DNA from: Brasenia schreberi
Lineage: Eukaryota > Streptophyta > Magnoliopsida > Nymphaeales > Cabombaceae
Length of the DNA: 64,000 nt
Direction: 5' to 3'
NCBI GenBank assembly: GCA_036023115.1
Contig: JAYKKT010000073.1
Span: 14,536,001-14,600,000, forward strand
The position numbers and the translations under genes were made by a program. Shown piece after piece: positions 71 to 20,061 of the stretch. The stretch's first letter is position 1. Each line of letters opens with the position of its first letter. Below the pieces are notes generated by a model. It ran no database searches, was not told the origin of the DNA, and saw nothing but the letters and a program-made list of their open reading frames with translations.

Positions 71-351
71 TATATTATGTAATTCAAATGTAGTTAAGTG
101 TTTGGGTCCTAATGAATTGGGTCAGATTCATTAGGAACCATGTACTTTAAGTAAGGGTATTGTAGTCTTTTAAGTTAAAATAGTGATTAGTATAAATTGT
201 AATTAGGGCTGCCGTTTGGAGTGATGATGGATTAAATAAAGAGGAGCAGGGGACGACGGCCAGAGAAAAGGCGACAACAGTCCTTCAAGTTATTTCAGTC
301 TATGTATTTTTTCAGTCTTGTTTAGCATGATTTGATGCATGAAAAACATCA
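71..351 (+). repeat. 5' LTR of Copia-1 (left end missing)
   Basis: This matches 8602-8846 plus 13011-13029 along its length, including the stretch TATATTATGTAATTC and the terminal GCATGAAAAACATCA. The first 53 or so bases present in the 3' LTR are missing here. It ends directly against the primer binding site. Confidence 0.85.
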
Positions 352-364
352 TCGTATCAAAGCC
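352..364 (+). other. Copia-1 primer binding site
   Basis: TCGTATCAAAGCC lies directly after the LTR end. It differs at two positions from TGGTATCAGAGCC, the usual plant copia site complementary to initiator Met-tRNA, and is intact at 9157 in the nested element. Confidence 0.7.
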
Positions 365-907
365 TAAACTCGTGTTTTTAGTCATCGTGGATCATTAACA
401 GGCAGTTAAGTGGATTCAGTCGAAAAAACTGTAAGTTTGTTCAATCGTTTGGCTCACTATTTTATTCAGGTATAACAAAAGAATCTATTCTTTTGTTGAT
501 TACATTCACAACAGAACATTTTTGAAGGGGATTTGATTCAAGTAATTACTTACACCAACATAAATTATCATTCACGGTGGTGAAGTTTCTTTTTGTTGTC
601 ATTGAAGAGAGCAGCGATTTTGAAGAAATCGGCAGTTGTGAAGTTTGTTTTGTGACGTGGGTTGAAGTACCAAGATCAAGATTTGATCATTTACATGTTA
701 TGGTATATTAATATTTGGTGAAATTTCATCATTGGAACAATCAGAAGTTTCATTATTGAAACAATCGGCTGCCCCTGTTTGCTAAGTACTTTCGGTTCAG
801 TTCTTGGTTAAAATTGACTGCACACATTAAGATTTAGATTTTGAGGCTTTTTACTTGTGTAGTCTATTCTAAGAGGACTTGATCACAATCGATTACTTCA
901 GCGATTG
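365..907 (+). other. Copia-1 untranslated leader
   Basis: This AT-rich stretch between the PBS and the gag start has no open frame of note. It is the expected position of the packaging leader of a copia element. Confidence 0.6.
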
Positions 908-1230
908 ATGGAAAAAAACAAAATGGGTGATACAACTGAAAATTTTTCTGTAGATAAAGGTGAGGGGTTTCAAATAACCAACCTAAAATTAGATGGAAAA
1001 AATTTCCTTCAGTGGGCCAGATCTATAGAGCTAGCAGTAATGGCCAGGGGGCGTTGGAATTATCTGACCGGTGACGTAGTACAACTTTCAGTGAATGATC
1101 CTTTATACACTAAGTGGCGTAGAGAAAATGCACTAGTTAGTGCCTGGCTCCTCCAGTCCATGTCTCCATCGATTTCTAGCACCTTAATGTTTCTAGAGAC
1201 TTCTAGGGACATTTGGTTAGTTGTTCATGA

Positions 1231-4200
1231 CAGTGTTGTCTTACGCGTATCGTATCGTGTATCGCTGGGCTCCACGATACGGGCGTATCGTATCGTATCG
1301 TACTTTAATATTAAAATAATGTAAAAATCAATAAAAAATAGTAAAAATTTGAAAAAAATCAAAACAAATCAGAAACAAATCAGGAAAAATCTGATAAATG
1401 CTTTAAATTCATATAATGTAAGTTTAGTACAGATTGAGCATTCAACATTGAACAATTGCATCCAAATTTACATATTTTGAATCCAAAAAATAAAATACAG
1501 ACATAGTTTACACTTTACAGTACACTACAGTTACATATAATGTTACATTTTACAAATTGTAATCAGGATCATTAACTAAATAATCTTCATCTTCTCCTTG
1601 TTGTAGATCCTCATCATCATCAGCCACGCCCACACCTTCTTCTTCAAAATCAAATTCTTCATCTCCATAATGTTGTTGCGCTCTTTCCAAATTAATCCAG
1701 GCAACGTCTTCTTCTGTTAGGAGGGCATTTTCTTCAGTGTCTTCCATAACCCAATCTTCTAATATATCAAAATTATCCAAACTTATTGGATCAAATTGAC
1801 TTTCTTCTCTATTTACTTTTTTTAATTGCCTACGACACAAACAAAGATAAACAATTAGTAAGTAATATTAACAATTGAAAACTGAAGTTAAATAATATTG
1901 AATTGAAAATTTGAAAGTAATGCAACATTACCCTTCACGAAGGCGCATGTTACAACGAATATAAACCAAATCATTAAGCCTTTTGTGTTCCAACCTGTTG
2001 CGCTTTTTTGTATGGATGTGTTTAAAAACACTCAAATTTCTTTCACAACCTGTTGCACTATAGGTTTGGCTTAAGACTCTGACTGCAAAATCTCTAAGGT
2101 TTGGACAATCACTTCCAAATCTGTTCCACCAAACATCTGTAAAAAAAATACAAACATTAGAGACATAATAATCCACAGTAATGTAAGATGCAACTTAAAT
2201 ATGAAAATAAACAATGTACCTGGACGCATCGTAGAGCGGTTGCGAATTGCAACAGGCAAACCCATCAAGTGAAGAGCATTATCATATATCTCCATCTCTC
2301 GATGTATCGCATCTGCTATGCTCTCATCAGGGACTAATCTGTCGATACAATCAATGATTCCTCGATTAACCTCACCGTCCCTTTTGAAGGTTTCTGAGTA
2401 CCTGAATGATGGGTTTAGATAATATGCTGCTGCATGAATAGGCTGATGCAATTGTTTATTCCATCTACTATCAATTATTTTCCACACGGGCACATAATCT
2501 CTCTTTTTTCCATTAAAATTATTTCTGATGGCTTCTTTTGCCCTGTCCATGGCTTCATAAAGGTAGCCCATAGATGGTTTCTCCTCGCTATCAGCCAATC
2601 TCAAAACTTTCACTAATGGACAAGTAATTTTCAATAATCTGACACATGCATTCCAAAATGAACTTCTAAAAACTGTTTATGCAATCTCATTCAACTTTTT
2701 ATTTCTTCTGTTTTGAGGCAACTCTGCAAATTGTTGCCACTCATCTGAGGAGAACATTCTCTTCAAAGCTTGCTTCTGTCTCACAATACTTTGTACAGAT
2801 AAGAAGTTTGTTGCGAACCGAGTTGCAGCTCTACGAAGAAGCTTTGCACCTTCTGTGTATCTCCTCATCATACACAAAACAAAGGCATGGTTGTAAATGA
2901 ATTTTGTAATATCTTGGCAACACTCAGTTGCTGCCTTTATTTCATCCATCTCACCAATGTCCTGGAGGATGAGATCTAAACAATGGGCTGCACATGGTGT
3001 CCAGTAGAAAGTCCCATAAATATCAGCTAACTCCTTCCCAGCTGCTTTGTAGTTAGCTGCATTATCTGTAATCAATTGGACCACATTCTGTAGCCCAACC
3101 TCCTGTATAATCTTATCAAATTATTCTCGTAGGATCTCTGCAGTGTGTCTCTCCTCTGACATGTCTAGAGATCTCAAAAACATGAGTCCTTTAGGACAAT
3201 ATACAAGAAAGTTTAGCAATGTCCTTCCTCGCCTATCGGTCCATCCATCTGCCATAATAGTGCATCCTGTTTCCTTCCACGACTGTCTCAAAGTCGAACA
3301 GTATTGTTGCACTTCAATTACGGTCTGATCTAATATCTTCCCTCTCAACTTCTGATAAGAGGGCATCTTATATCCTGGACCAATGTTTACAATTGCATCT
3401 GCCATTGCTTGAAAATGAAAACTATTTGCTGCATTAAATGGAATGCATGCATCATAAAACCATCTTCCCACTGCAAGGTCTGCCTGATCATGCAGTTGTT
3501 CTGAAGCCATAGCAGCACGAATTCCTGATTGAGCACCAGGTGTAGTGGAAGGAGGAAAGAACGAATGTATGCTAGAAGAAGAAGCTCTTCCTCTACTCCT
3601 TCCTGAACTTCCTCTTCTGCCACCTCCAAAGTCTTCAGTTGTAACCCTCTTTCCTCTAGTAGGTGCTCGTGAACTGCTACTACCAATCTCTGTTCGAGCA
3701 TCTGAAGGCAAACTATCAGTGAATCCAAATCCAGTGGCAGTAGCATCATCAGCTTCTTCATACATCTGAAAATCATCCTTTTGTTGTCTCCGTTCTTGTA
3801 TGTTCTCAATCATCTGTAGGCATTGCCATTTAATACCTTCTGGTAAACTTCTAACTCTGCCTGTGCATGGAGCAACTTCTTTCCTGGTTCCTGCTAGGTG
3901 GTGTTTCAACCTTGAAATTCCACCACTAACCACCTTTTCACAAAATAAGCATATGATTTTTAACCTTGAACCCTCAACTGGTATACCCCACTGCCATGCC
4001 GGATCATCAGACTTTGAATGAGAGTCTCTACCACCCCTTCCTGCCATCTCAATGGAGTACTTTAATTCAAACAAAAAGCTGAAAATAAAAGCACTTCGTA
4101 AATTCCCCAATTTTCAAATAACACTCAAATCGAGTGTCTCCCACTTCATGAATGCAATAAAAATCGTATACACACACTTAATAACTTCATATTTTGTCAT

Positions 4201-4573
4201 TCAAAAAAAAAACTGAAATAACATAAAAAACAATAAATATAAAGGAAAATAATGAAAAAAACATTAAAAATATACCAAAATCCGAGTTTGGAGGCTTGCA
4301 CGGGCACCGTAGGGCACAATTTTGAAGCTTTGAACACTAAGGAGGCGAAAATCGGCTCTTAGGGAGCTTGAGGAACCCAAGAAGAGAGAGGAAACCCGCG
4401 AAAAATCGAGGGTTTCAGTCGGCCCGGGACCCTTTATAAGGGTCCCAGGGCGTATCGTCCGTATCGTACCGTATCGTGCGATACGGCCCGTATCGCACGA
4501 TACGGTGCGATACTATGGGTTTCACGATACTATGGGTCCCACGATACGATACGGTGCGATACGGATAACACTG
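1231..4573 (-). mobile_element. hAT-1: hAT-superfamily DNA transposon in Copia-1 gag
   Basis: The element runs from CAGTGTTGTC (1231) to GATAACACTG (4573). These ends form an imperfect terminal inverted repeat, and the element is flanked by a perfect 8-bp target duplication GTTCATGA (1223-1230 and 4574-4581), the hAT hallmark. Both subterminal regions (1241-1305 and 4449-4565) are dense in CGTATCG / CGATACG motifs on both strands, likely transposase binding sites. It encodes a minus-strand transposase with two nonsense codons. A close relative sits at 16791-20061. The element is 3,343 bp. Confidence 0.95.
1550..4047 (-). pseudogene. hAT-1 transposase with two premature stops
   Basis: The coding region starts at ATG 4047-4045. 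Its N-terminal BED-type zinc finger has the C-x2-C pair in CLFCEKVVSGG and the His pair in SRLKHHLAGT. It continues through a DUF659-like region (ITDNAANYKAAG, WTPCAAHCLDLIL) to the C-terminal hAT dimerisation domain (SATGCERNLSVFKHIH). An acidic tail ends PDYNL at the stop 1550-1552. Two introns are apparent, about 2137-2219 and 1830-1931, each with GT-AG ends on the minus strand. There are in-frame stops at 3121-3123 (GAA in the sibling copy) and 2677-2679 (also GAA in the sibling). The protein is therefore broken, and mobilisation would need transposase in trans. Confidence 0.9.
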
Positions 4574-5293
4574 GTTCATGATGCATACGTTCAAAGGAAA
4601 ACCATAGCCAAGAAATATGATATTATTGAAAAGATTAGAAGATGTAGACAAGGAAACAAATTTGTTAGTGAATATTATGTAGAACTCCGAGGTCTCTGGG
4701 AAGAACTGCAACTTTATTTCAAAACAAAGTGTCAAAATTGCACCCAAGAGAGGAATGAAGAGCACGAAGAAAGAAAGGTGTTTGATCTTTTATGGGGTAT
4801 TTCTTCAAGTTATGAAGCAGTAAAAAATGATATTTTGAGCAGAGAAGAACTACCATCTTTAAGTATCGTCTATTCACTTCTACTTCGAGAGGATGATAGA
4901 AAGCATTTGGAGGAGGCAAAAATCAATAAAGAAATAATTGCATTTGTTGGAAGAAACTCATCAAATTCATCATTTTTTCGTGGTAGAGGAGGTTATGGAC
5001 GTGGTAGAGGCAGATTTGTACCTACTTCTGATGAACGAGCAAAATTAACATGTTCGTACTGTGGAAAAACCCAACACACAAAGGAGACATGTTGGGCATT
5101 AGTTGGAAGACCTCCTCAATTTCAAAATAGATCAAACAATGCTTATTTTACCAGTGATAAGAATGACAAACAAAATACTGAAGATAGTGCAAGTTCACTA
5201 GCAGACATGAAGGAGGAGATTGAGTTGCTCAAGGCTTGATTAGTTGATTCATAGGCTCCATCTACATCTTCCGGTAATAAATCTCAGGCTACC

Positions 5294-6313
5294 ATGGCGT
5301 ATCCCTTCTCATTCTTGGCTAAGGGTAATTTAAATACTTCTAATTCTCAAATATGGGTTATTGATTCAAGAGCAACCGATCATATGGTCAGTAGAAAGGA
5401 ACTATTTGATTGTTATGAGCAGACTCAAGAACGAGTCAATATCCGTTTGGCAGATGAATCACATACCCCTATAATGGGAAAAGGAAACATTACTACTTCT
5501 TTTGGTGTACTAAAGAATGTTTTACATGTTCCCAGTCTATCAGTTAATTTATTATCAGTCTTTGTCTTAACCCAGGATCTTAAATGTCGAATAATTTTTG
5601 ACTCTACTGGATGTGTATTTCAGGAACTGAGGATGGGGAAGATCTATGGTCAGGGTAGTGTAAGGAGAGGTCTTTATCTCTGTGAAGAAAAGAATGGAGC
5701 GGCTATGCAGTCTACTAGCATCACAGAAAAACAGAAAGAAATACCCCGTTGGCACCAACGATCGGGACATTTACCTCTATCTAAAATTAGAATACTATTG
5801 CCTGAATTCAGTTTATGTAATAATTTGAATTTAAATTATGAGAGTTGTTATAAGGCAAAACATCATCATACTTTATTTCCTTTGAGTGAACAAAAGTCAT
5901 CTGTTCCTTTTGAAATTGTTGATTCTGATGTTTGGGGTCCTTGTGCTACTACTTCTCTGCATGGATTTAAATACTTTATAACTTTAATAGATGATTGCAC
6001 TAGGTTTACAATGATATACCTTATGAAAATTAGAGATGAAGTAAAGAATATTCTACCTATTTACTGTAAATTTGTACGTACTCAATTTCAGAGTACTATC
6101 AAGATATTTCGCAGTGATAATGGTGGAGAGTTCATGTCTCAATCTCTTCATTCATACTTCTTAGAAATTGGGAGTCTACATCAGACTTCATGTGCTTATT
6201 CTCCTCAACAGAATGGAGTTTCTGAAAGAAAGAACAGACATATTCTGGAAGTTGTTAGAACCTTATTGATTGGGTGTAATGCCCTCAAATACTATTGGTA
6301 TAAAGCAGTGTAG
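5294..6313 (+). pseudogene. pol: Copia-1 protease and integrase region
   Basis: This is an open stretch of about 340 codons. The aspartic protease motif reads WVIDSRATDHM, where copia proteins normally have D-S-G, so the catalytic triad is altered. The GAG-pre-integrase segment WHQRSGHL follows, then the integrase core with its three acidic positions in DSDVWGP, FRSDNGGEF and QQNGVSERKNRH. A stop ends the frame at 6313, inside the integrase. It lies between gag and the RT remnants of the same element. Confidence 0.85.
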
Positions 6314-6356
6314 ACAACAGTTTTTCTCATAAACCGCAGGTAGAGCAGAGTCCTCA

Positions 6357-8541
6357 ATGGTAATACTCCCTTTCTCTCACTATGTCCTCGTCAGAAGCAA
6401 TTTTATTTACTTACCAGAGTTTTCGAATGCACCTATTTTATTCATCTTCATCATAGTCTTAAAAGATAAATTAGATGCAAGATCGATCAAATGCATCTTT
6501 GTGGGGTATTCCTCTACTCAGAAAGGTTGTAAGTGTTATGACCCTATCAACAAAAAATTATGTCACTTTGGATGTTATATTTCATGAAGATATACCGTTT
6601 TATAATATGAGGAAGATTTATCATCTGAAATAGATTCTTCAAATGTGATAACGATTCCTCCGATTGAAAATCAGCTACAGCATGAGAGGGAAGATGAAGA
6701 GATGATGCCTACTCAGAATAAAGATTGGCAGGTGTATTCCAGAGGTAACAGAGAGGTGTTCTTACCAGATCAAGATAGTCACTCAGGTTCAGACTCATCT
6801 CCAATTAAGGTAACTTCTAATAATTCAGAAGTCCGAAAAGGAAAAAGAGAAGTAACAAAATACTCATTGCAAAAGTTTGTGTCATTCTCCAACTATCCCC
6901 AAGAATATCAGGTATTTGTAATGAATACTGATATCACTTTTATTCCAAAAACATTCGAAGAAGCAGAACAAAAACTAGAATGGAAGAAAGCAATGGAAGA
7001 AGAAATTGCTGCACTAGTCAGAAATAAAACTTGGGAACTGGTTGACTTACCATCAGGAAGGAAAACAGTAGGGTGCAAATGAGTGTTCTCCGTAAAGTAC
7101 AAAGATGATGGCAATATTGAAAGATACAAAGCCAGATTAGTAGCTAAGAGTTACAGTCAAACATATGGCATCAACTACACTGAAACGTTTGCTCCAGTTG
7201 CAAAAATGAATACAATTCGGATAATTTTGAGCGTGACAGTTAATAAAGGTTGGGAGTTATGGCAATTGGATGTTAAAAATGCATTCGTACAGGGAGATCT
7301 TATGAAAGACATTTATATGGATGTACCTCCAGGATACCTTAAGAAACAAAAGCAGAATAAAGTTATAAATTGAAGAAGGCCTATATGGAGCTTAAACAAG
7401 CTCCAGGTGCTTGGTTTGAGAAAGTTCTCCATTGTGATTACATCTCTTGCCTCCACTCTAGCCTGCATGATTAAGCCCTTTGTTTCTTGAGTGCACTTCT
7501 CATGAGTCGTATCCTGCTCTCCTTATACGTTGATGACGCAGTCATTATTACCGGGATGATCGTGTTGGCCAGATTGTGGAGTTGAAACTCTATTGGCAAG
7601 CATCGGTTTGAGATGAAAGACTTAGGTACTCTTACGTTACTTTTTTGGGGATTGAAGTTGCTTACTCTCTAGAGATGGTTACCTCCTTTCTCAATCTAAG
7701 TACAATGGCACCATTCTTGAACAAGCTCATCTACTCGACTAACTTTAGAGACAAAGGATACTCCTCTTGATCCATAATGTTCGGTATACTTCTTCCGTGA
7801 TCTTTGTTCCTTTGTCCGATCCCAACTTTGTGACGAGTACTCTTGTTGGAAAAGTTTGGTATATCTTACCATCACTAGACACGTATATTGCTTATGCGGT
7901 GCATGTTATTTAGTTAGTTTGTTGCTTCTCTCCACTGTGACTCATTGGGCATGTCCCATTCTTCACATTCTTCGATTATCTTCGGAGTACTCAATTTCGA
8001 AGTCTTGTCTTTCCTTCATCATCTGTCACTTGGAATTACTATGCTTACTCGGATGTTGATTGGGGTGGTGACTCCACCGTCGTAGAAGTCTACCACGAGG
8101 GTTTTGCATCTTTTAGAGGGATTACTCTCATTTCTTGGAAAAGTAAGAAGCAAGTTGTTGTTGTCTCGCTCTTCTGTCCGAAGTCGAATGCGGAGTGCCG
8201 TAGCATATAGCACTTTGCCCGCAAATGCCAAAATAGTTTGGTTGCATTGGTTAAACTTAAGTCTATGGGTGTAGGAGCTTCCCTTGGACCCACTCTATGT
8301 GTGTGATAATATGAGTGCTATACAAATCACTCGCAATCCTTTCAATCTTCCATAAAAGCACAAGCATATTGAGATTGACTGTCACTTTATCAGAGAGAAA
8401 ATTTCTCAACGCTTATTCAACCTTGTTCATGTACGCTCAGAAGATCAACTAGCGGATGTTCTCACTAAATCATTACCAGTCAATGGGTTTAAGAAAATCC
8501 TTGCAAAGATAGGAATCACAACTCTTCAAGACTCAACTTGA
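6357..8541 (+). pseudogene. pol: Copia-1 integrase C-terminus, reverse transcriptase and RNase H, decayed
   Basis: The integrase tail appears as DARSIKCIFVGYSSTQKGCKCY near 6475-6540. The RT starts around 6905 with W-K-x-A-M-x-E-E in EWKKAMEEEI. It passes a stop at 7081-7083, then reads RYKARLVAKSYSQ, ETFAPVAKMNTIR and WQLDVKNAFVQGDL. From 7374 several frames are needed: the active site is visible as LYVDDAVI near 7525, and the RNase H end as HIEIDCHFIREK and DQLADVLTKSLP near 8365-8480. There are multiple stops and frameshifts. Confidence 0.85.
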
Positions 8542-8548
8542 GGGGGCG

Positions 8549-8846
8549 TGTTAGGAGATCAAGTCTCGTCTTCAAGCATGTTTTAGTCTCTTCTGTTTTA
8601 GTATATTATGTAATTCAAATGTAGTTAAGTGTTTGAGTCCTAATGAATCGGGTCAGATTCATTAGGAACCGTGTACTTTAAGTAAGGGTATTATAGTCTT
8701 TTAAGTTAAAACAATGATTAGTATAAATTGTAATTAGGGTTGTCGTTTGGAGTCATGATTGATTAAATAAAGAGGAGCAGGTGTCGGCGGCCAGAGAAAA
8801 GGCGGACTGTTCTATGTATTTTTTCAGTCTTGTTCAGCATGATTTG
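8549..8846 (+). repeat. 3' LTR of Copia-1, left part
   Basis: It begins TGTTAGGAG directly after the polypurine tract GAGGGGGCG and matches the 5' LTR from 8602 on. It is interrupted at 8846 by the insertion of the LTR element that ends at 13009. The remaining 20 bases of this LTR are at 13010-13029. Confidence 0.85.
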
Positions 8847-9156
8847 TGTTGAAGAATATGTTTATCTAGTGTCTTTGTGTTAGTTTCATGTTTCTAGGTA
8901 TTATTGTACTCGCCCGAAACTGTAGGGGCATTTTGGTAATTTTCTGTACTAAGGGATATTTTGGTCATTTTATGTTTTACAGCTCCTTATATAAGGGCTG
9001 ATAAGTTGTATTAGGGTTTAAGAGTCTGTGAATAAGAAAGAGAGAGAAAGAGGGGGGCGGCCTCCATTGGAGGTCCGCCCCCTCATCCGATCTCAACATT
9101 TCTTCTTCGTTTATGTTTGTGATTTTAATCTCCGCTGCGCATCTGCGTTTCCAACA
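8847..9156 (+). repeat. 5' LTR of the gene-capturing element
   Basis: This 310-bp LTR runs from TGTTGAAG to TTCCAACA and is nearly identical to 12700-13009. It includes a TATA box at about 8988 and a GA-rich stretch, and contains the palindromic GC-rich block GGCGGCCTCC / GGAGGTCCGCC, which could fold. Confidence 0.95.
8987..8995 (+). promoter_or_regulatory. LTR TATA box
   Basis: TTATATAAG lies in the LTR about 170 bases before its end. The same motif is at the same place in the right LTR (12840). This is the usual position of the LTR promoter. Confidence 0.55.
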
Positions 9157-9172
9157 TGGTATCAGAGCTTGG
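9157..9172 (+). other. Primer binding site, initiator Met-tRNA type
   Basis: TGGTATCAGAGCTTGG follows the 5' LTR with no spacer. The core TGGTATCAGAGC is the standard site of plant copia and many gypsy elements. Confidence 0.9.
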
Positions 9173-9532
9173 AATCGAAATATTGGTGGCTCGGTGTCGT
9201 CTTCGTCGTTCTCTCTCGGATTAGGGTTCTCTCTCTGTACTGCGCCTCTCACTGGTGCGTTTGGTGGTTTTCGGCGGCTGCCTGTGGTGGTTTTCAGTAG
9301 GCCAACGGATACCACATCCACTTGAGCCATCACCGTTGGAATCTTGTTGCCGTTGTTCACGTTTCCCCCTCTTTCTCCTTGCTGTTGGAAGCATATCAAG
9401 AGATAACGAGGAGTCGAAGACTAATTTGTGTTGTGCTTAAATAGTTCTGGCCATCCCCAATCTCAAATTGCAGAGTGCTCAACATCTTCTTGCAGGTCAC
9501 TTTCATCAAGGCAGAGATAACAGAGTGCAACA
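9173..9532 (+). other. Internal leader of the gene-capturing element
   Basis: No recognisable protein is encoded here. The last 90 bases or so, before the ATG at 9533, may be 5' untranslated sequence of the captured splicing factor mRNA. Open frames on the minus strand across this stretch look like chance. Confidence 0.4.
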
Positions 9533-9694
9533 ATGCCACGATATAATGAAGATTCATCCGGTGACACTCGACTTTATGTTGGTCGTCTTTCTTCGCGCAC
9601 ACGCACACGTGATCTTGAAGACCTTTTTAGCAGATATGGCATAGTACGAGATGTGGATCTGAAGAATGACTTTGCCTTTGTTGATTTCAGCGAA
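9533..9694 (+). pseudogene. Captured fragment: RS2Z-type SR splicing factor, N-terminus
   Basis: The fragment opens with the ATG and gives about 54 residues of an RNA recognition motif: [20 protein letters not shown] with RNP2, then [20 protein letters not shown] with RNP1. This is the N-terminus of plant RS2Z32/33-type splicing factors (known family). The match stops after FVDFSE, before the rest of the RRM, the two zinc knuckles and the RS tail. In the element it is the first captured piece after the leader, in sense orientation to the LTR promoter. It is a fragment, not a working gene. Confidence 0.85.
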
Positions 9695-9856
9695 CACTTG
9701 ATATGCAGATTGAATATTTCTATTACTTCAAGCGCATCATGGAGACATTCTCTGTTCATAGGTTCAGCCAGGCAACATCGCCACTCTCTAATGTGTTCAG
9801 AAACTGTGCTTACTACTGGAATTGTATCAATAAGTATGACTCAAATTCATCGAGAT

Positions 9857-10035
9857 AGAGAGATTCAAGGTTCTGATGAAGACATTGATCAAGCTGCGAT
9901 TGAAAGCCTTCTTCCTGATGATGAGGATGAGTTTTTTGGCTGGCATGATCAGGGAGTTTGACATAAATGATTTGCCCAACCGTGTTTGGATGACTGATCT
10001 TTTTTCCAAAATGGAGGTGGCATGGTGGCTGCAAT
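9857..10035 (+). pseudogene. Captured fragment: Mei2-like RNA-binding protein
   Basis: The reading [11 protein letters not shown] followed, after a one-base frameshift in a T run, by [15 protein letters not shown] matches the conserved segment ahead of the first RRM of plant Mei2-like proteins. In that family the usual form is [15 protein letters not shown] then a DFDLSGLP-like stretch. The fragment is short (about 50 residues) and frameshifted. It directly follows the RS2Z piece; 9695-9856 between them is not identified and may be more of the same mRNA. Confidence 0.7.
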
Positions 10036-10234
10036 ATTACATTGTTGAAATTTCAAGAATTTAATGTTGGGGCAGAGAATTTAATGTTGTGAATAACAGA
10101 AGTAACCATAATTGCAATAAACAGGCCTCGAGCAACCTGCAGCTTTAATGATCATTAATTGTTCTAAGTCAATAATGCTCAATGCCTGTTCTAAATCAAT
10201 TTGCATGCACGGTGGCCTTTCTTCGTTTTTTTAA

Positions 10235-10700
10235 GTGGATGAAAATGAACACTATGTTTTTGAGGAGAGGATAAATTTTGCGGTATTCCCATCACTGCAA
10301 GGTGGACCTCATAGTAACCATATTGTTGCTCTTGCAGTAGACTTGGAACAGGTTGCTGGTCCTGAATATAAAGCATTCATGCAACAGGTGAAGAAAAATG
10401 TCCAAGTTCTGTTAGCTGCTTTGCTTGGAAGAAAATGCAGACTGAAAACTATGAGAAGGTTTAGAAGGTTTGCCATATTAGCCTAAACAAAAGTGCGATT
10501 TTTGGTGATAATGGTGTTGTATCTCAAGGCAGCCCAGATTACAAGCTTGGTACAGAGGGAGTAAGGATTGGAACCCCGGCAATGACGTCGAGAGGTTGTG
10601 TGGAGAATTATTTTGAGAGGATTGCAGAGTTCCTTCTCAAGGCAGCCCAGATTACAAGCTTGGTACAGAGGAAGCATGGGAAGTTGCAGAAGGATTATGC
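10235..10700 (+). pseudogene. Captured fragment: serine hydroxymethyltransferase
   Basis: INFAVFPSLQGGPHSNHIVA and YKAFMQQVKKNVQVLLAALL are unmistakable SHMT. After an internal loss and a frame change, [36 protein letters not shown] and [15 protein letters not shown] follow in SHMT order. SHMT interconverts serine and glycine using PLP and tetrahydrofolate. The segment between CRL and NYEKV (normally about 20 residues) is deleted. A 37-base piece (10635-10671) has been copied to 10522-10558. A stop replaces a codon in NYEKV. Contiguous coding across this length suggests a spliced mRNA source. Confidence 0.92.
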
Positions 10701-10775
10701 ATTTATTGCATATGGCTACTGATTCATTCATCGTGAAGGATTATGCATTTATTGCATATGGCTGTTGTTCATTCA
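10690..10775 (+). repeat. Short tandem duplication within the captured SHMT tail
   Basis: The stretch GGATTATGCATTTATTGCAT followed by ATGGCT occurs twice, about 46 bases apart. It lies just after the end of SHMT similarity. Confidence 0.75.
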
Positions 10776-10907
10776 ATATCTGCTGTGAACTATTCGTATT
10801 CCTAAGAAAGTGAACTGGTGTTTTAGGGGCCAGTCAATTATGACTTCTGTAAGGCTATAGGGTGCAGCAAACGATCATTAAATTAGGCCAGAATGAAAAT
10901 GAGGAAT

Positions 10908-11000
10908 CTGACAAGTATTGGCCGGCGGAGCTTTTATTATAGTATGGGTATTGACCTATGGAGTGCAGACTACATTCTGGCAAAACTGCTGAAAGATGAT
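10908..11000 (+). pseudogene. Captured fragment: CDK-like protein kinase
   Basis: In two overlapping frames the text reads YWPAELLL then GIDLWSADYILAKLL. This corresponds to the W-Y-R-P-P-E-L-L-L and GIDLWSAGCILAELL activation-segment region of plant cyclin-dependent-kinase-like proteins. Only about 30 residues are recognisable. The following text, to about 11150, is open but unassigned. The fragment is sense oriented like the others. Confidence 0.55.
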
Positions 11001-11179
11001 CATGGAGATGTTCATAATGGTGATTCAAGAGGTGACAGTGTCATATCAATTAATGAGCCGAATGCTGCATCAAGTATTGCATCATATACGCATCATTATC
11101 TCTCTACACTTTGTATTAATAGCTGGCAGGTGAAGAGGTACATTGACTAGTACTTTGTATTAATAGCTTAGCAATGGCA

Positions 11180-11512
11180 ACCATGGACATAATTAAACTT
11201 TATGGAGGCACACCCGCCAATTTTCTTGATGCTGGTGGAAATGCCTCAGAGAACAATTGGTGGAGGCATTGAAAATTTTGACAGCCAATGAAAAGGTGTA
11301 AGCAATACTGGTCAATATTTTTGGAGGCATTATGAAATAAGATGAGATTGCAAGTGGTATCGTGAATGCTGCCAACAGGTCACACTCAAAGAGGTTGTTA
11401 GTTGTTTGCCTGGAAGGAACCAATGTCGACCATGGGAAGAGAATCTTGAAGGAAAGTGGAATGACCATAATCACAGCAGAGGATCTGGATGATGCAGCTC
11501 AGCAATTGTGGC
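11180..11512 (+). pseudogene. Captured fragment: succinyl-CoA ligase beta subunit, C-terminus
   Basis: [20 protein letters not shown], then in other frames the remains of the VNIFGG region, then SGIVNAAN, LEGTNVDHGKRILKESGMT and ITAEDLDDAAQ. These are consecutive C-terminal motifs of the mitochondrial ADP-forming succinyl-CoA ligase beta subunit, a citric-acid-cycle enzyme (known family). Several frameshifts and a stop break it. No intron is visible across about 330 bases, in line with capture from spliced mRNA. Confidence 0.9.
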
Positions 11513-11579
11513 TCCCTTCCATAAAGAAAAAAAAAACTGCAAGAATTAGGGAAGAACGACAGTGATCAAAAATTCTTGC

Positions 11580-11850
11580 TGCTAATTCTTGAGTCACATT
11601 TACGTGGATGCACTACAAAGAGAGCACCTCTTGATCTAGAGGTCACCAGCAGTAATCACGAATTAGCGTACCAATTGTTTGATGAAATGCTCAAGCAGAG
11701 ATGGCACATCAAATGTTTGATTAAATGCCAAAGAGAGGTTACCTGCACATAAAGTATTTGATGAAATGCTCAAGAAGAGATGATTAACATGAACATCAAG
11801 TGTTTGAGGAAATGTTTAAGAGAGCAAGTTTGGATGGAATGTCTCCCATC
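11580..11850 (+). pseudogene. Possible captured PPR-like fragment
   Basis: Phrases such as LAYQLFDEMLK, KVFDEMLKK and HQVFEEMFKRA recur at roughly 50-70 base intervals in different frames. They resemble the A-x-x-x-F-D-E-M-x-x-R core of plant pentatricopeptide repeats. The identity is uncertain; it could instead be local tandem duplication of one such phrase. Confidence 0.3.
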
Positions 11851-11889
11851 TGTCGATTCTTGTGAAGTTTGCAGTCATGAGAGCTGCTA

Positions 11890-12400
11890 AAATATGTGTT
11901 GCAGCCAAAGTAGCTGCTTTTGTGACAGCCAGGATGGCTGCTTTGTTGATGTGACAGCCAGGATGGCTGCTTTATTGTTGTGACAGCCAGGATGGCTGCT
12001 TTATTGTTGTGACAGCCAGGATGGCTGCTTTATTGATGTGACAGCCAGGATGGCTGCTTTATTGTTGTGACAGTCAGGATGGCTGCTTTATTAATGTGAC
12101 AGTCAGGATGGCTGCTTTGATATTGTGACAGCCAGGATGGCTGCTTTATTGTTGTGACAGCCAGGATGGCTGCTTTATTGTTGTAACAGCCAGGATGGTT
12201 GCTTTGATATTGTGACAGTCAGGATGGCTGCTTTATTGTTGTGACAGCCAGGATGACTGCTTTGATGTTGTGACAGCCAGGATGGCTGCTTTGTTGATAT
12301 GACAGCCAGGATGGCTGCTTTATTGATGTGACAGCCAGGATGGCTGTTTTGATGTTGTGACAACCAGGATGACTGCTTTGTTATTGTTACAGCCAAGAAG
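11890..12400 (+). repeat. Minisatellite of about 29-bp units with a hairpin core
   Basis: Some sixteen or more units of GACAGCCAGGATGGCTGCTT followed by a short TTGTTGT / TTGATGT spacer. Every unit carries CAGCC-AGGAT-GGCTG, a 5-bp inverted repeat around a 5-base loop. Substitutions between units are few, so the array is fairly young. It has no coding meaning; the minus-strand frame giving repeated SWLSQHQ is a by-product. Confidence 0.9.
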
Positions 12401-12590
12401 GCTAAGTTTATATTGCAGCCAGAGATGCTGCTTGAGATGATTAGCTAGGAAGGCTAAGTTTACATTGCAGCCAGAGATGCTGCTTGAGATGATTAGCCAG
12501 GGAGGCTAAGTTTACATTCCAGCCAGAGATGCTGCTTAATATGATCAGCCAAGAAGGCTGAGTTGAAGATATTGCAGCCAAAGAAGCTGT
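12400..12590 (+). repeat. Second tandem array, about 52-bp units
   Basis: Three to four units alternate GCAGCCAGAGATGCTGC and TTAGCCAGGAAGGCTAA. Each of these is itself an imperfect hairpin. The array continues directly from the 29-bp array and probably derives from it by higher-order duplication. Confidence 0.8.
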
Positions 12591-12699
12591 TGAAGATTAA
12601 ACCAGTGATAAAGACAGATGAAGAACGTTGCAAGCAGATATGAAGATTGTTTGGCAAGTTTGGAGTTCGAAGTATCTCACTCCCAACTTGAGGGGAGGG

Positions 12700-13009
12700 T
12701 GTTGAAGAATATGTTTATCTAGTATCTTTGTGTTAGTTTTATGTTTCTAGGTATTATTGTACTCGCCCAAAACTGTAGGGGCATTTTGGTAATTTTCTGT
12801 ACTAGGGGTATTTTGGTCATTTTATGTTTTACAGCTCCTTATATAAGGGCTGATAAGTTGTATTAGGGTTTAAGAGTCTGTGAATAAGAAAGAGAGAGAA
12901 AGAGGGGGGGCGGCCTCCATTGGAGGTCCGCCCCCTCCTCCGATCTCAACGTTTCCTCTTCATTTATGTTTGTGATTTTAATCTCCGCTGCGCATATGCG
13001 TTTCCAACA
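12700..13009 (+). repeat. 3' LTR of the gene-capturing element
   Basis: This is the 310-bp partner of 8847-9156, preceded by the polypurine tract GAGGGGAGGG (12690-12699). After its end CCAACA, the 3' LTR of Copia-1 resumes. Confidence 0.95.
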
Positions 13010-13039
13010 TTGATGCATGAAAAACATCATATTTATTCT

Positions 13040-14061: not shown

Positions 14062-16053
14062 ACAACAACAAAACTAAGCCTTTTCCCATAATAGACGGGG
14101 TCGGCTACATGGATTCTTTGAGTGCCATGTTAGCAGTTAACTCCCAATAAGCTAGATCATTCTTTATTGTTTCTTTCCAACACTTCTTTGGTCGTCCTCT
14201 ACCTCTTTTGATACTTTCCAAATTTAGTTTTTCTAACCTTCTTACAGGTTCTTCTTTTGATCTTCTTTCTATATGTCCAAACCATCTTAAACGATGTTCT
14301 CTCATTTTATCCTCTATTGGTACCACTCCTAATTTGTTTCTAATAACCTCATTATGGATACAGTCTTTTCTTGTACGACCACTCATGCATCTCAACATCT
14401 TCATTTCTGTCACAAACATCTTTTGTACATGTTGATGATTAACTGCCCAACACTCAGAACCATAAAACATGGCAAGCCTAATTGCTGCTCTATAATATTT
14501 ACCTTTTAACTTTAATGGTATCTTCTTATCACAAAGAATACCTCCTCTCCATTTTACCCAACCAGCATTAATTCTATGTGTAACATCTCCATTAATTCTT
14601 CCATCACTTTTAAAAATTGACCCTAGGTATTTAAAACTTTTCTTTTGGGGAATGCAATGTGTGCCAATTTTAATTTCTATGTCTTCTGAAGTAGCCAAAT
14701 GATCAAACTTACATTCCATATATTTTGTCTTTGTTCTACTAAGTCGGAGGCCTTTTCTTTCTAATGTTTCTCTCCATAGTTCCAATTTTCTATTAACTTT
14801 TTCCTTAGACTCCTCCACTAATACAATGTTATCTGCAAATAACACACACCAAGGTACTTCATCTTGAATATATTTTTTTAACTCATCTATCACCATTATA
14901 AATAAGTATGGACTTAAAGTTGATCCTTGATATAACCCAATATTAACTTCAAAGAAGTCTGTCATTCCTTCATGAGTCCTCACACATGCTTTTGCACCAT
15001 CATTCATGTCTCTTATAAGGTTAATATATGTCAATGGGATACCTCTTTTTTTCAAAGTTCTCCAAAGAACCTCCCTCGATACTCTATCATAAGCTTTTTC
15101 TAGATCAATAAATATCATGTGAATGTCTTTTTTTTTTGCTCTAAAATGTTCCATAAGACGTCTCAAAAGGTGAATCGCTTCAATAGTAGATCTACCTGAC
15201 ATAAATCCAAATTGGTTCTCTGTTGTACTTGATACTTGTCTTAACCTACGTTCGATAATTCTTTCCCATAATTTCATAGTATGACTCATTAACTTGATAC
15301 CTCGATAATTCGCACAATTTTGATGTCTCCCTTATTCTTATATATGGGTATAAGTGTACTTGCTCTCCATTCCTCGGGCATCTTTTGGTTTTTCCATATT
15401 TCATTAAATAGTCTTGTGAGCCAAGTGATTCCTAATTTTCCTAGTATTTTCCAAACTTCTATAGGAATATTATCCGGTCCTACCGATTTACCACCCTTCA
15501 TATGTTTAAGAGCCTCTTTGACTTCATTCTTTTGAATACGTCGGTAGAAATTGTAGTTTATATACTTTTCTGACTTGGCTAAATCTCCTAAACTAATACT
15601 AACATCTTTATTTTCATTAAAAAGATTATAAAAATAGTTTTTTCATCTATTTCTTATATCATCATTTGCCACTAGAATTTTTTCGTCCTCGTCTTTTATG
15701 CATCTAACATACTTAAGATATTTAGTTTTCTTATCTCTAGCCCTAGCTATCCTAAAATATCTCTTTCACCCTCTTTTGAGTTGAGTTTTTTATATAAGTC
15801 CTCCCAAATCTTAGTTTTTGCTTCACTAACGACCTTTTTTGCTTCCTTCTTTGCTTTCTTATAAGCTTCTAAAGTTTCACTAGTTTTCTTAGCATAATGT
15901 AATTTATAACATGCGCTCTTTGCCTTGATTTTATTTTGTACTACTTCACTCCACCACCAAGCTTCTTTTTGTGCCGGTACACCTCCCTTAGATACCCCTA
16001 ACACATCTTTCACTACTTTCCTAATATGTATAGCCATATTGTTTTACATATCA
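14062..16053 (-). mobile_element. RTE-2: minus-strand RTE LINE inserted in RTE-1
   Basis: The 3' end with the (TTG)n tail lies at 14062 on the minus strand and the truncated 5' end at 16053. It is flanked by a 16-bp direct repeat TCACATGATATTTATT (14046-14061 and 16054-16069), which is a single-copy sequence of RTE-1. This proves insertion of one RTE into another. The endonuclease half is missing, as is common for 5'-truncated LINEs. Confidence 0.95.
14105..16037 (-). pseudogene. RTE-2 reverse transcriptase, partial, with altered active site
   Basis: The minus-strand frames give the RT fingers and palm ([33 protein letters not shown]) and the active-site block LFADNIVLVEES. The family form, visible in RTE-4, is FADD, so the second catalytic Asp is Asn here. 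The C-terminal region [21 protein letters not shown] follows. The upstream pieces [13 protein letters not shown] and AIHIRKVVKDVLG lie in other frames. It is 5'-truncated and frameshifted near 15289 and 15502-15747. Confidence 0.9.
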
Positions 16054-16790
16054 TCACATGATATTTATTGATCTAGAAAAAGCTTATGATAGGGTACCAA
16101 GGGAGGTTCTTTTGAGAACTTAAAAAAAAAGAGGTATTCCATTGACATACATTAACCTTATAAGAGACATGTATGGTGGTGCAAAAACACGTGTGAGGAC
16201 TCATGAAGGAATGACAGACTTTTTTGAAGTTAATATTGGGTTACATTAAGGATCAACTTTAAGTCCATACTTATTTATAATGGTGATTGCTGAGTTAACA
16301 AAACATATTAAAGATGAAATACCTTGTTGTATGCTATTTGGAGATGACATTGTGTTAATGAAGGAGTCTAAGGGAAAAATTAATAGAAAATTGGAACTAT
16401 GGAGAGAAACATTAGAAAGCAAAGGCCTCCAACTTAGTAGAACAAAGACAAAATATATGGAATGTAAGTTTGATCATTTGGTTACTTGATAGGACATAGA
16501 AATTAAAATTGGCACACATTGCATCCCCCAAAAAGAAAGTTTTAAATACCTAGGGTCAATTTTTCAGAGTGATGGAAGAATTGATGGAGATGTTACGCGT
16601 AGAATTAATGTTGGTTGGTTAAAATAGGGAAGAGTATCATGTATTCTTTGTTATAAGAAGATACCACTAAAGTTAAAGGGTAAATATTATAAAGCAGTAA
16701 TTAGGCCTGCCTTGTTTTATAGTTATGAGTGTTGGGCAGTTAATCATCAACATGTACAAAAGATGTTTGTGACATCAACATGCACAAAAG

Positions 16791-19700
16791 CAGTATTGTC
16801 TGACGCGTATCGTATCATGTATCGTTGGGCTCCACGATACGGGCGTATCGAATCTTATCGTATCGTATTTTAATATTAAAATAATGTAAAAATCAATAAA
16901 AAATAGTAAAAATTTGAAAAAAATCAAAACAAATCAGAAACAAATCAGGAAAAATCTGATAAATGCTTTAAATTCATATAATGTAAGTTTAATACAGATT
17001 GAGCATTCAACATTGAACAATTGCATCCAAATTTACATATTTTGAATCCAAAAAATAAAATACAGACACAGTTTACACTACAGTTACATGTAATGTTACA
17101 TTTACAAGTTATAATCAGGATCATCAACTGAATAATCTTCATCTTCTCCTTGTTGCAGATCCTCATCATCATCAGCCATGCCCACACCTTCTTCAAAATC
17201 AAATTCTTCATCTCCATAATGTTGTTGCGCTCCTTCCAAATTAATCTAGGCAACGTCTTCTTCTGTTAAGAGGGCATTTTCTTGAGTGTCTTCCATAACC
17301 CAATCTTCTAATATATCAAAATTATCCAAACTTATTGGATCGAACTGTCTTTCTTCTCTATTTACTTTTTTTAATTGGCTACGACACAAACAAAGATAAA
17401 CAATTAGTAAGTAATATTAACAATTGAAAACTGAAGTTAAATAATATTGAATTGAAAATTTGAAAGTAATAGTAATACAACATTACCTTTCACGAAGGCG
17501 CATGTTACAACGAATATAAACCAAATCATTAAGCCTTTTGTGTTTCAACCTGTTGCGCTTTTTTGTATGGATGTGTTTAAAAACACTCCAATTTCTTTCA
17601 CAACCTGTTGCACTATAGGTTTGGCTTAAGACTCTGACTGCAAAATCTCTAAGGTTTGGACAATCACTTCCAAATCTGTTCCACCAAACATCTGTAAAAA
17701 AAATACAAACATTAGAGACATAATAATCCACAGTAATGTAAGATGCAACTTAAATATGAAAGTAAACAATGTACCTGGATGCATCGTAGAGCGGTTGCGA
17801 ATTGCAACAGGCAAACCCATCAAGTGAAGAGCATTATCATATATCTCCATCTCTCGATGTATCGCATCTGCTATGCTCTCATCAGGAACTAATCTGTCGA
17901 TACAATCAATGATTCCTCGATTAACCTCACCGTCCCTTTTGAAGGTTCCTGAGTACCTGAATGATGGGTTTAGATAATATGTGCTGCATGAATTGGCTGA
18001 TGCAATTGTTTATTCCATCTACTATCAATTATTTTCCACACGGGCACATAATCTCTCTTTTTTCTATTAAAATTATTTCTGATGGCTTCTTTTGCCCTGT
18101 CCATGGCTTCATAAAGGTAGCCCATAGATGGTTTCTCCTCGCTATCATTCAATCTCAAAACTTTCACTAAAAGACAAGTAATTTTCAATAATCTGACACA
18201 TACATTCCAAAATGAACTTCTAAAAACTGTTTCTGCAATCTCATTCAGCTTTCTATTTATTCTATTTTGAGGCAATTCTGTAAATTGTTGCTACTCATCT
18301 GAGGAGAACATTCTCTTCAAAGCTTGCTTTTGTCTCACAATACTTTGTACATATAAGAAGTTTGTTGTGAACCGAGTTACAGTTGTGCGAAGAAGCTATG
18401 CACCTTCTCTATATCTCCTCATCATAGACAAAACAAAGGCATGATTGTAAATGAATTTTGTAATATCTTGGCAACACTCAATTGCTGCCTTTATTTTATT
18501 CATCTCACCAATGTCCTGGAGGATGAGATCTAAACAATGGGCTGCACATGGTGTCCAGTAGAAAGTCCCATAAATATCAGCTAACTCCTTCCGAGCTACT
18601 TTGTAGTTAGCTGCATTATCTGTAATCAATTGGACCACATTCTGTAGCCCAACCTCTTGTATAATCTTATCAAATTCTTCTCGTAGGATCTCTGCAGTGT
18701 GCCTCTCCTCTGACATGTCTAGAGATCTCAAAAACATTAGTCCTTTAGGACAATATACAAGAAAGTTTAACAATGTCCTTTCTCGCCTATCGGTCCATCC
18801 ATCTGCCATAATAGTGCATCCTGTTTCCTTTCACGATTGTCTCAAGTCGAACAATATTGTTGCACTTCAATTACGGTCTGATTTAATATCTTCCCTCTCA
18901 ACTTCTGATAAGATGACATCTTATATCCTGGACCAATGTTTGTAATTGCATCTGCCATTGCTTGAAAATGAAAACTGTTTGCTGCATTAAATGGAATGCA
19001 TGCATCATAAAACTATCTTTCCACTGCAAGGTTTGCCTGATCATGCAGTTGTTCTGAAGCTATAGCAACACGAATTCCTGGTTGAGCACCAGGTGTGTTG
19101 GAAGGAGGAAAGAACGAATGTATGTTAGAAGAAGAAACTCTTCCTCTACTCCTTCCTGAACTTCCTCTTCTTTCACCTTCAAAGTCTTCAACTGCAACCC
19201 TCTTTCCGCTAGTAGGTGCTCGTGAATTGCTACTACCAATCTCTGTTCTAGCATCTGAAGGCAAACTATTAGTGAATCCAAATCCAGTGGCAGTAGCATC
19301 ATCAACTTCTTTATACATCTAAAAATCATCCTTTTGTTGTCTCCGTTCTTGTATGTTCTCAATCATCTGCTGGCATTGCCATTTAATACCTTCTGACAAA
19401 CTTCTAACTCTGCCTGTGCATGGAGCAACTTCTTTCCTGGTTCCTGCTAGGTGGTGTTTCAACCTTGAAATTCCACCACTAACCACCTTTTCACAAAATA
19501 AGCATCTGATTTTTAACCTTAAACCCTCAACTGGTATACCCCACTGCCATGTCGAATCATCATACTTTGAACGAGAGTCTCTACCACCCTTTCCTGCCAT
19601 CTCAATGGAGTACTTTAATTCAAACAAAAACCTGAAAATAAAAGCACTTCGTAAATTCCCCAATCTTCAAATAACACTCAAATCGAGTGTCTCCCACTTC

Positions 19701-20061
19701 ATGAATGCAATAAAAATCGTATACACACAATTAATAACTTCATATTTTGTCATTGAAAAAAAATCCGAAATAACACAAAAAACAACAAATATAAAGGAAT
19801 AAAATGAAAAAAACATTAAAAATATACCAAAATCCGAGTTTGGTGGCTTGCACGGATACCGTAGGGCACAATTTTGGAGCGTTGAACACTAAGGAGGCGA
19901 AAACCGGCTCTTAGGGAGCTTGCAAAACCCAAGAGGAGAGAGGAAACCCGCGAAAAATCGCGGGTTTCAGTCGGCCCGGGACCCTGGGCGTATTGCACGA
20001 TATGGTGTGATACGCTGGGTTTCACGATACGAGCCCCCGATACGATACGTATCGTACGCTG
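16791..20061 (-). mobile_element. hAT-2: second copy of the hAT-1 family, in RTE-1
   Basis: It starts CAGTATTGTC at 16791 and ends ACGCTG at 20061. It is flanked by the 8-bp target duplication CACAAAAG (16783-16790 and 20062-20069). It is closely similar to hAT-1 along its whole length, roughly 95% by eye. The right subterminal repeat block is shorter than in hAT-1, so that end has lost sequence. Length is 3,271 bp. Confidence 0.93.
17102..19600 (-). pseudogene. hAT-2 transposase, multiply broken
   Basis: It has the same domain order as hAT-1: BED finger (CLFCEKVVSGGISRLKHH), DUF659-like block (ITDNAANYKVARKELAD), and hATC (SATGCERNWSVFKHIHTKKR), with the acidic end PDYNL and stop 17102-17104. 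Its lesions differ from those of hAT-1. They include CAG to TAG near 19321, a Trp to stop near 19013, a one-base deletion near 18845, and a Trp to stop near 18290. The glutamates that are stops in hAT-1 are intact here. It is not functional. Confidence 0.88.

Follow-up and report, generated by a model that had tools for sequence, protein, structure and literature searches.

How can a single small long terminal repeat (LTR) element come to hold pieces of several unrelated host genes? The question is raised by positions 8847-13009 of a 64,000-nucleotide stretch of Brasenia schreberi DNA (the window), for which a first-pass annotation, made from the sequence alone, had proposed an LTR element with five or six captured host transcripts in place of gag-pol. 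We compared this element with the reference assembly (1,055,133,615 bases in 92 contigs; C numbers denote contigs, the window lying on C73, and L numbers denote loci read from the assembly). The explanation that we hold with considerable confidence is that it belongs to a non-autonomous, Copia-like LTR family whose interiors are mosaics of host mRNAs, formed by repeated template-switch capture together with recombination of cargo between members.

Host gene pieces within a single insertion

The stretch 8847-13009 is a single LTR-element insertion within an LTR of another, Copia-type element. The latter spans 71-13030; one of its LTR copies lies near 71-352, and the other, the 3′ LTR, is split by the insertion into 8549-8846 and 13010-13030. 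Its other LTR keeps the empty site, with the left flank of the insertion matching up to position 334 and the right flank matching 332-352, and the whole stretch is therefore one insertion. As annotated, two 310-bp LTRs with TG..CA ends are adjoined by a primer binding site (PBS), which we take to be of the initiator tRNA-Met type, and a polypurine tract (Table 1), as in an LTR retrotransposon. The two LTRs differ by nine substitutions and two one-base gaps (Kimura two-parameter [K2P] distance, 0.030), which corresponds to about 1.1 million years at a rate of 1.3e-8 and to 6 million years at 2.5e-9 per site and year. The interior shows no gag-pol: visual inspection of its three sense translations revealed none, and over 9157-11900 neither the sense nor the antisense frames gave a Pfam pol domain.

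In genome searches for donors, run with 9694-11660 (the best 40 of 135 candidates being scored) and with 9157-9717 (the best 40 of 53), seven pieces matched loci elsewhere in the assembly: an RS2Z splicing factor, an enoyl-CoA-reductase-like sequence, a Mei2-like sequence, SHMT, succinyl-CoA ligase beta, and two unnamed sequences. The matched donors are scattered over contigs C70, C92, C65, C89, C82, C91, and C60. The identities already given to the RS2Z (RRM_1), SHMT, and ligase pieces agreed with Pfam and/or PDB matches; the enoyl-CoA-reductase-like piece, the two unnamed pieces, a 41-nt inverted patch, and two tandem arrays of 29 and 52 bp had been overlooked. One of the five places matching the enoyl-CoA-reductase-like piece, L063, contains an open frame with a match to Steroid_dh (E value, 6.7e-5), which we presume to be CER10/TECR. 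The Mei2-like piece matches two genomic loci at 86 to 87% and gave no Pfam match; its name is our assumption from the donor frame. The C82 sequence also lacked a Pfam match, and L062 likewise has no Pfam name. Further matches were found for SHMT (two loci at 80%) and for the ligase (paralogs on C74 and C69). The proposed CDK-like kinase left a weak trace and could not be firmly identified: the piece in its first form matched nothing convincing in PDB, and the best values were an E value of 1.1 for CDK7 in PDB and, in the sister element L050, 0.007 for Pkinase, under the curated cut-off. Six more places match this module alone, and because the four that were read (L050, L051, L053, and L054) bear matches to the backbone of the family or to its LTR, they point to no donor gene for the module. 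L050, a family member, has a Hexokinase_2 match (E value, 1.9e-9) next to the kinase-like module.

The mRNA origin of the captured pieces is supported by the introns missing at four donors. The RS2Z, SHMT, ligase, and unnamed C60 gene pieces lack introns that measure about 80 bp to 5 kb in the donors, and for these four the first-pass annotation's description of the pieces as apparently intron-free holds. The RS2Z donor (C70:3781523-3787120) matches in three blocks at 92, 99, and 97%; the blocks 9228-9324, 9324-9525, and 9524-9641 adjoin in the element but, by their coordinates, are separated in the genome by ~115 and 5066 bp, and in a paralog on C81 the genomic gap is nearly 25 kb. Inspection at base level showed that the element lacks five introns with GT..AG ends: three of the ligase gene and one each of SHMT and the C60 gene. 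The joins left behind are exact for SHMT, C60, and the third ligase intron, and the other two ligase joins show changes of 1 to 3 nt. Part of an exon is lost from the SHMT piece at 10444/10445. Within that piece 10522-10566 repeats 10635-10679 out of place; this segment and 10689-10763, which duplicate SHMT or adjoining sequence in displaced and tandem form, are possible polymerase slips. More contiguous RS2Z matches occur at C70:10105644 and C58:3747394 (9231-9607 and 9231-9605), outside the seven elements with the RS2Z module. No chimeric relative was found among nine of the 13 proteins matched with the frame running from RS2Z into Mei2; all nine were of the RS2Z type.

The missing introns also bear on capture at the DNA level in the style of Helitrons or Pack-MULEs, with the LTRs enclosing the pieces later. 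Multiple gene fragments are common in elements of that kind. Introns are, however, missing from the four pieces named above and from a squalene/phytoene-synthase piece of the sister element L009, LTR ends are present in place of DNA-transposon ends, and antisense frames gave no Pfam match in 18 of 18 cases (three each of six elements, window element included), and we give this explanation almost no credence. The claim that all pieces lie in sense holds for those with a coding match, but not for 9684-9724 and 10132-10191, which are inverted.

A family with varied and probably recombining cargo

A genome search with the 5′ LTR gave 41 matches (best 40 of 3624 candidates scored). Twenty loci were fetched around strong matches, and 15 of them had an LTR pair; the counts for 16 elements include the window element. 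The pattern of LTR end and PBS has 34 exact sites in the genome. A further count of 558 sites at ≤3 mismatches (reversed control, 2) was not accepted as the size of the family, as the end may occur in other LTR elements.

The sister elements have the same LTRs and the same 3′ end but different cargo. The interior 3′ end is common to all 15, and a PPR-like stretch to 13 of them. This stretch, a weak match in the window element where the query joined two frames, had been listed as a possible captured PPR piece; because it recurs in 13 of 15 sisters, it is backbone and not cargo. The 16 elements measure about 2.1 to 4.3 kb, with interiors of 1511 to 3700 bp, and are thus larger than the very short elements with short interiors known as terminal-repeat retrotransposons in miniature (TRIMs). 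Their LTR divergence K ranges from 0.016 to 0.051. Perfect 5-bp target duplications flank 13 of the 16; the exceptions are the window element (3 nt), L010 (4 of 5), and L024 (none found). Inside the 15 interiors no genuine Copia reverse-transcriptase motif was present in frames of >60 amino acids, the single motif match lying in a Cpn60-like piece of L021.

Sense frames in parts of 11 of the 15 interiors were scanned with Pfam at E values up to 0.01; the other four (L015, L017, L023, and L024) share cargo with scanned interiors or with the window element. Domains other than PPR were found in six of the 11: Pkinase (8.6e-7) and SQS_PSY (3.9e-4), both under the curated cut-off, in L009; ArfGap, DUF7074, and DUF7075 above and C2 and DYW under the cut-off in L012; calreticulin above and a weak Cpn60 (0.0026) under it in L021; WD40 and AUX_IAA, above it, in L022; and CBM_20 in L027 and KH in L010, both under it. 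L011, L016, and L020 contained PPR only, and L013 and the scanned part of L025 gave no match. L016 has an open PPR reading frame of 295 amino acids at 4517-5401. When the genome was searched with sister cargo, long matches were found at no fewer than 8 further places for L012, 6 for L021, and 3 for L009. The squalene/phytoene-synthase piece of L009 has a spliced donor at C69:6326649-6327590, and the domain match spans the block join. L021 matches an unnamed spliced donor locus (C70:5787838-5788823; query blocks 1911-2357); no calreticulin donor was located, the calreticulin match at ~1723-1905 of the query lying outside these blocks. The cargo of L012 matched a DUF7074-type block on C85, C62, and C49 and, again on C62, an unnamed locus in two blocks. 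The window element is thus no lone oddity: it belongs to a family whose cargo varies and often comes from several genes.

How the cargo halves are distributed bears on the history of the window element. The RS2Z module alone occurs on C70 and C39 (sequence read) and on C79 and C91 (match table only). The module from Mei2 to ligase with the enoyl-CoA-reductase piece, without RS2Z, occurs on C36, C72, C80, and C54. Both modules are combined on C73 (the window), C77, and C92, the C92 element lacking about 11232-12471; the remaining sisters have partial or different cargo. In L020 and L024 the RS2Z piece extends further into the gene than in the window element, and L031 has ~213 bp, starting with more Mei2-like sequence, that the window element lacks. 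Extant elements thus carry either half of the cargo, and the window element has the appearance of a product of recombination between two such types, with losses. The same distribution refutes the capture of the whole cargo at once, as would be expected if one chimeric host transcript had been taken up and the mosaic had not formed within the family. The sense orientation of all coding-match pieces would fit such a transcript, but the donors lie on seven different contigs, and we consider this origin very improbable for the whole; for small groups of pieces a single chimeric transcript is possible.

Junctions and the likely route of capture

Four junctions were measured, microhomology being taken as the best overlap near the join, a measure that favors long values. 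The enoyl-CoA reductase and Mei2 pieces have 6 nt (ACTGGA) in common at their junction, and the ligase and C60 pieces have 11 nt. Of 20,000 random joins of the same donors, 18% gave 2 nt or more and 2% gave 4 nt or more, whereas 6 nt were reached in 0.17% and 11 nt in none. Because of these two clear microhomologies, template switching is likely to have been the route. The 41-nt inverted copy between the RS2Z and enoyl-CoA-reductase pieces, whose sense counterpart lies in the 3′ region of L020, has by eye ~7 and 4 nt in common with its neighbors. The serial template switching first proposed is consistent with the mRNA origin, the several unlinked donors, and the two microhomologies; it was probably not solely serial capture in one lineage, as the element looks recombinant.

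A number of observations weigh against the explanation that we favor. The Mei2/L064 and L064/inverted L064 joins have 2 and 4 nt in common (3 nt for the latter by alignment overlap), which is near chance (P≥2, 0.18; P≥4, 0.02), the overlap measure is biased to long values, and it covers four junctions alone. The two short inverted pieces require a switch to the opposite strand. The second SHMT intron is gone together with part of the preceding exon, so that this junction is no proof of splicing, and the enoyl-CoA-reductase-like, Mei2-like, and C82 pieces, which match in one block each, appear uninformative on splicing. The flanks of the window element repeat only 3 nt (TTG) and not 5, a target duplication of 4 to 6 bp being expected. 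No autonomous partner was found, the sole look being the scan of the fetched loci for the Copia reverse-transcriptase motif. Finally, an A10 run near 11530 is explicable also as the tail of a retrocopy. This run, the contiguous RS2Z matches on C70 and C58, and the frequency in the window of reading frames that we take to be of the long interspersed nuclear element (LINE) type would suit processed pseudogenes made by LINEs, inserted successively into an LTR element and trimmed afterwards. The A10 run lies, however, inside the stretch matching the C60 gene and not at its end; the 6 and 11 nt of microhomology disfavor separate insertions; and the target duplications that each fragment should then have, which the first-pass annotation had named as contrary evidence, were not seen by eye around the inspected joins, no systematic test having been made. 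We therefore judge this origin improbable and retain template-switch capture with recombination between members.

Under that explanation, the elements would move by means of enzymes supplied in trans. While reverse transcribing inside a particle that holds both, the polymerase would jump from the element RNA to a co-packaged mRNA and back, and a later jump between two cargo-bearing element RNAs would yield the combined element. As its coding pieces are broken, the window element most likely encodes no useful protein and would spread as a parasite of an autonomous relative.

Table 1. Features of the window element and its insertion site (window coordinates)
Feature	Position	Strand	Basis or match
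5′ LTR	8847..9156	+	310 bp, ends TGTTGA...CCAACA
PBS TGGTATCAGAGC	9157..9168	+	sequence
Family 5′ leader	9157..9228	+	query 1-72 or slightly more matches other places at 80-100%
RS2Z splicing-factor cDNA piece (5′ untranslated region and first exons)	9228..9693	+	9228-9641 by donor match; 9642-9693 by protein similarity only
Inverted 41-nt patch	9684..9724	-	97.6% to L020 and L024; resembles the family's own 3′ PPR-like region
Enoyl-CoA-reductase-like piece	9718..9820	+	five genomic places, 89-96%
Mei2-like (AML) piece	9812..10023	+	C65:20362219 and C52:1816986, each in a single block at 86-87%
Repeat-like piece, no coding match	10022..10134	+	L064, 89%
Inverted piece of the same L064 sequence	10132..10191	-	L064 opposite strand, 93%
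SHMT piece	10228..10696	+	paralogs C89, C49, C90 at 91-96%; Pfam/PDB
Module with weak CDK-like trace	10816..10990	+	also in other family members
Piece of unnamed C82 sequence, putative gene	11021..11105	+	single 85-bp match, 95%
Succinyl-CoA ligase beta C-terminal piece	11166..11505	+	C91:40466785-40472363, four blocks, 90-97%; Pfam/PDB
Spliced piece of unnamed C60 gene	11492..11647	+	L061 in two blocks (89 and 95%) separated by a GT..AG intron
PPR-like repeats, family backbone	11666..11846	+	similar sequence in 13/15 sister elements with LTR pairs
29-bp tandem array, family backbone	11920..12403	+	16.7 copies
52-bp tandem array	12391..12564	+	3.3 copies
Polypurine tract	12690..12699	+	sequence; similar tract ahead of 3′ LTR in sister elements
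3′ LTR	12700..13009	+	310 bp
Remainder of host Copia-type element's 3′ LTR	13010..13030	+	matches 332-352

Other repeats lie elsewhere in the window. Two 3.2-kb copies at 1231-4433 and 16791-19985 are 95% identical and contain reading frames that we take to be hAT-transposase-like. Another pair, 14062-16053 and 53398-55411, is 95% identical and presumably of the LINE type, the latter copy lying between frames that we take to resemble a MATE transporter. An inverted 721-bp repeat (14408-15122 and 16054-16774) is 91% identical. The window also contains an eIF4G gene, whose closest counterparts among 54 proteins are those of Nymphaea thermarum (47%) and Victoria cruziana (45%), in line with a probable kinship of the host to water lilies.

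Relation to known gene-carrying elements

Multi-gene transducing elements are marked by LTRs that enclose intron-free pieces from two or more unlinked host genes, as found here. Bs1 of maize contains transduced segments of three host genes (PMC13317346), exons only (PMC4717578), and two TRIMs were reported with exons from more than two genes, the soybean element GmaRetroS15 having pieces of three (PMC4717578). By cargo structure the window element may be grouped with Bs1 and GmaRetroS15, a likeness of description. With Bs1 it shares multi-gene, intron-free cargo, but about seven donors are involved here as against three, and sister elements with other cargo sets are not described for Bs1 in the available parts of these sources. 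The soybean gene-carrying TRIMs, GmaRetroS15 included, are likewise described as having LTRs, 5-bp target duplications, intron-free pieces, and mostly two or more copies; they measure 1,172 to 1,449 bp (PMC4717578), whereas the elements here reach ~2.1 to 4.3 kb, with more donors and visible recombination of modules. A survey of maize B73 reported 425 intact LTR elements with gene fragments from at least 189 captures and, with the criteria that it applied, none that combined fragments of two or more standard nuclear genes, Bs1 evidently being uncounted (PMC2774510). In rice and sorghum, 672 and 1,343 LTR-captured genes were reported, the consulted portion not mentioning several donors per element (PMC3726574). 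Pack-MULEs and gene-capturing Helitrons resemble the family in their varied gene cargo but are DNA transposons, and Pack-MULE cargo includes exons and introns (PMC4717578). No comparable family was recognized in the literature, judged mostly from titles and with subscription papers largely outside the coverage. Five or six donors had been called exceptional; within the parts of the literature consulted, donor number and family-wide modularity do exceed the published multi-gene cases (three genes each), although multi-gene capture as such is known and the element is not singular.

With the parent types surviving and an RS2Z donor 92 to 99% identical, the order of capture, the rules of template switching, and the exchange of cargo can be read directly in this family, which bears on the origin of exon-shuffled chimeric genes at the RNA level. 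A tentative extension, which we think rather doubtful, is that the family is specialized in host mRNA, which would enter its particles unusually often, with the 3′ backbone (PPR-like repeats and tandem arrays) serving as a landing and recombination platform and modules being exchanged like cassettes. If such specialized mRNA uptake were true, the family would be an RNA-level counterpart of Pack-MULEs and Helitrons.

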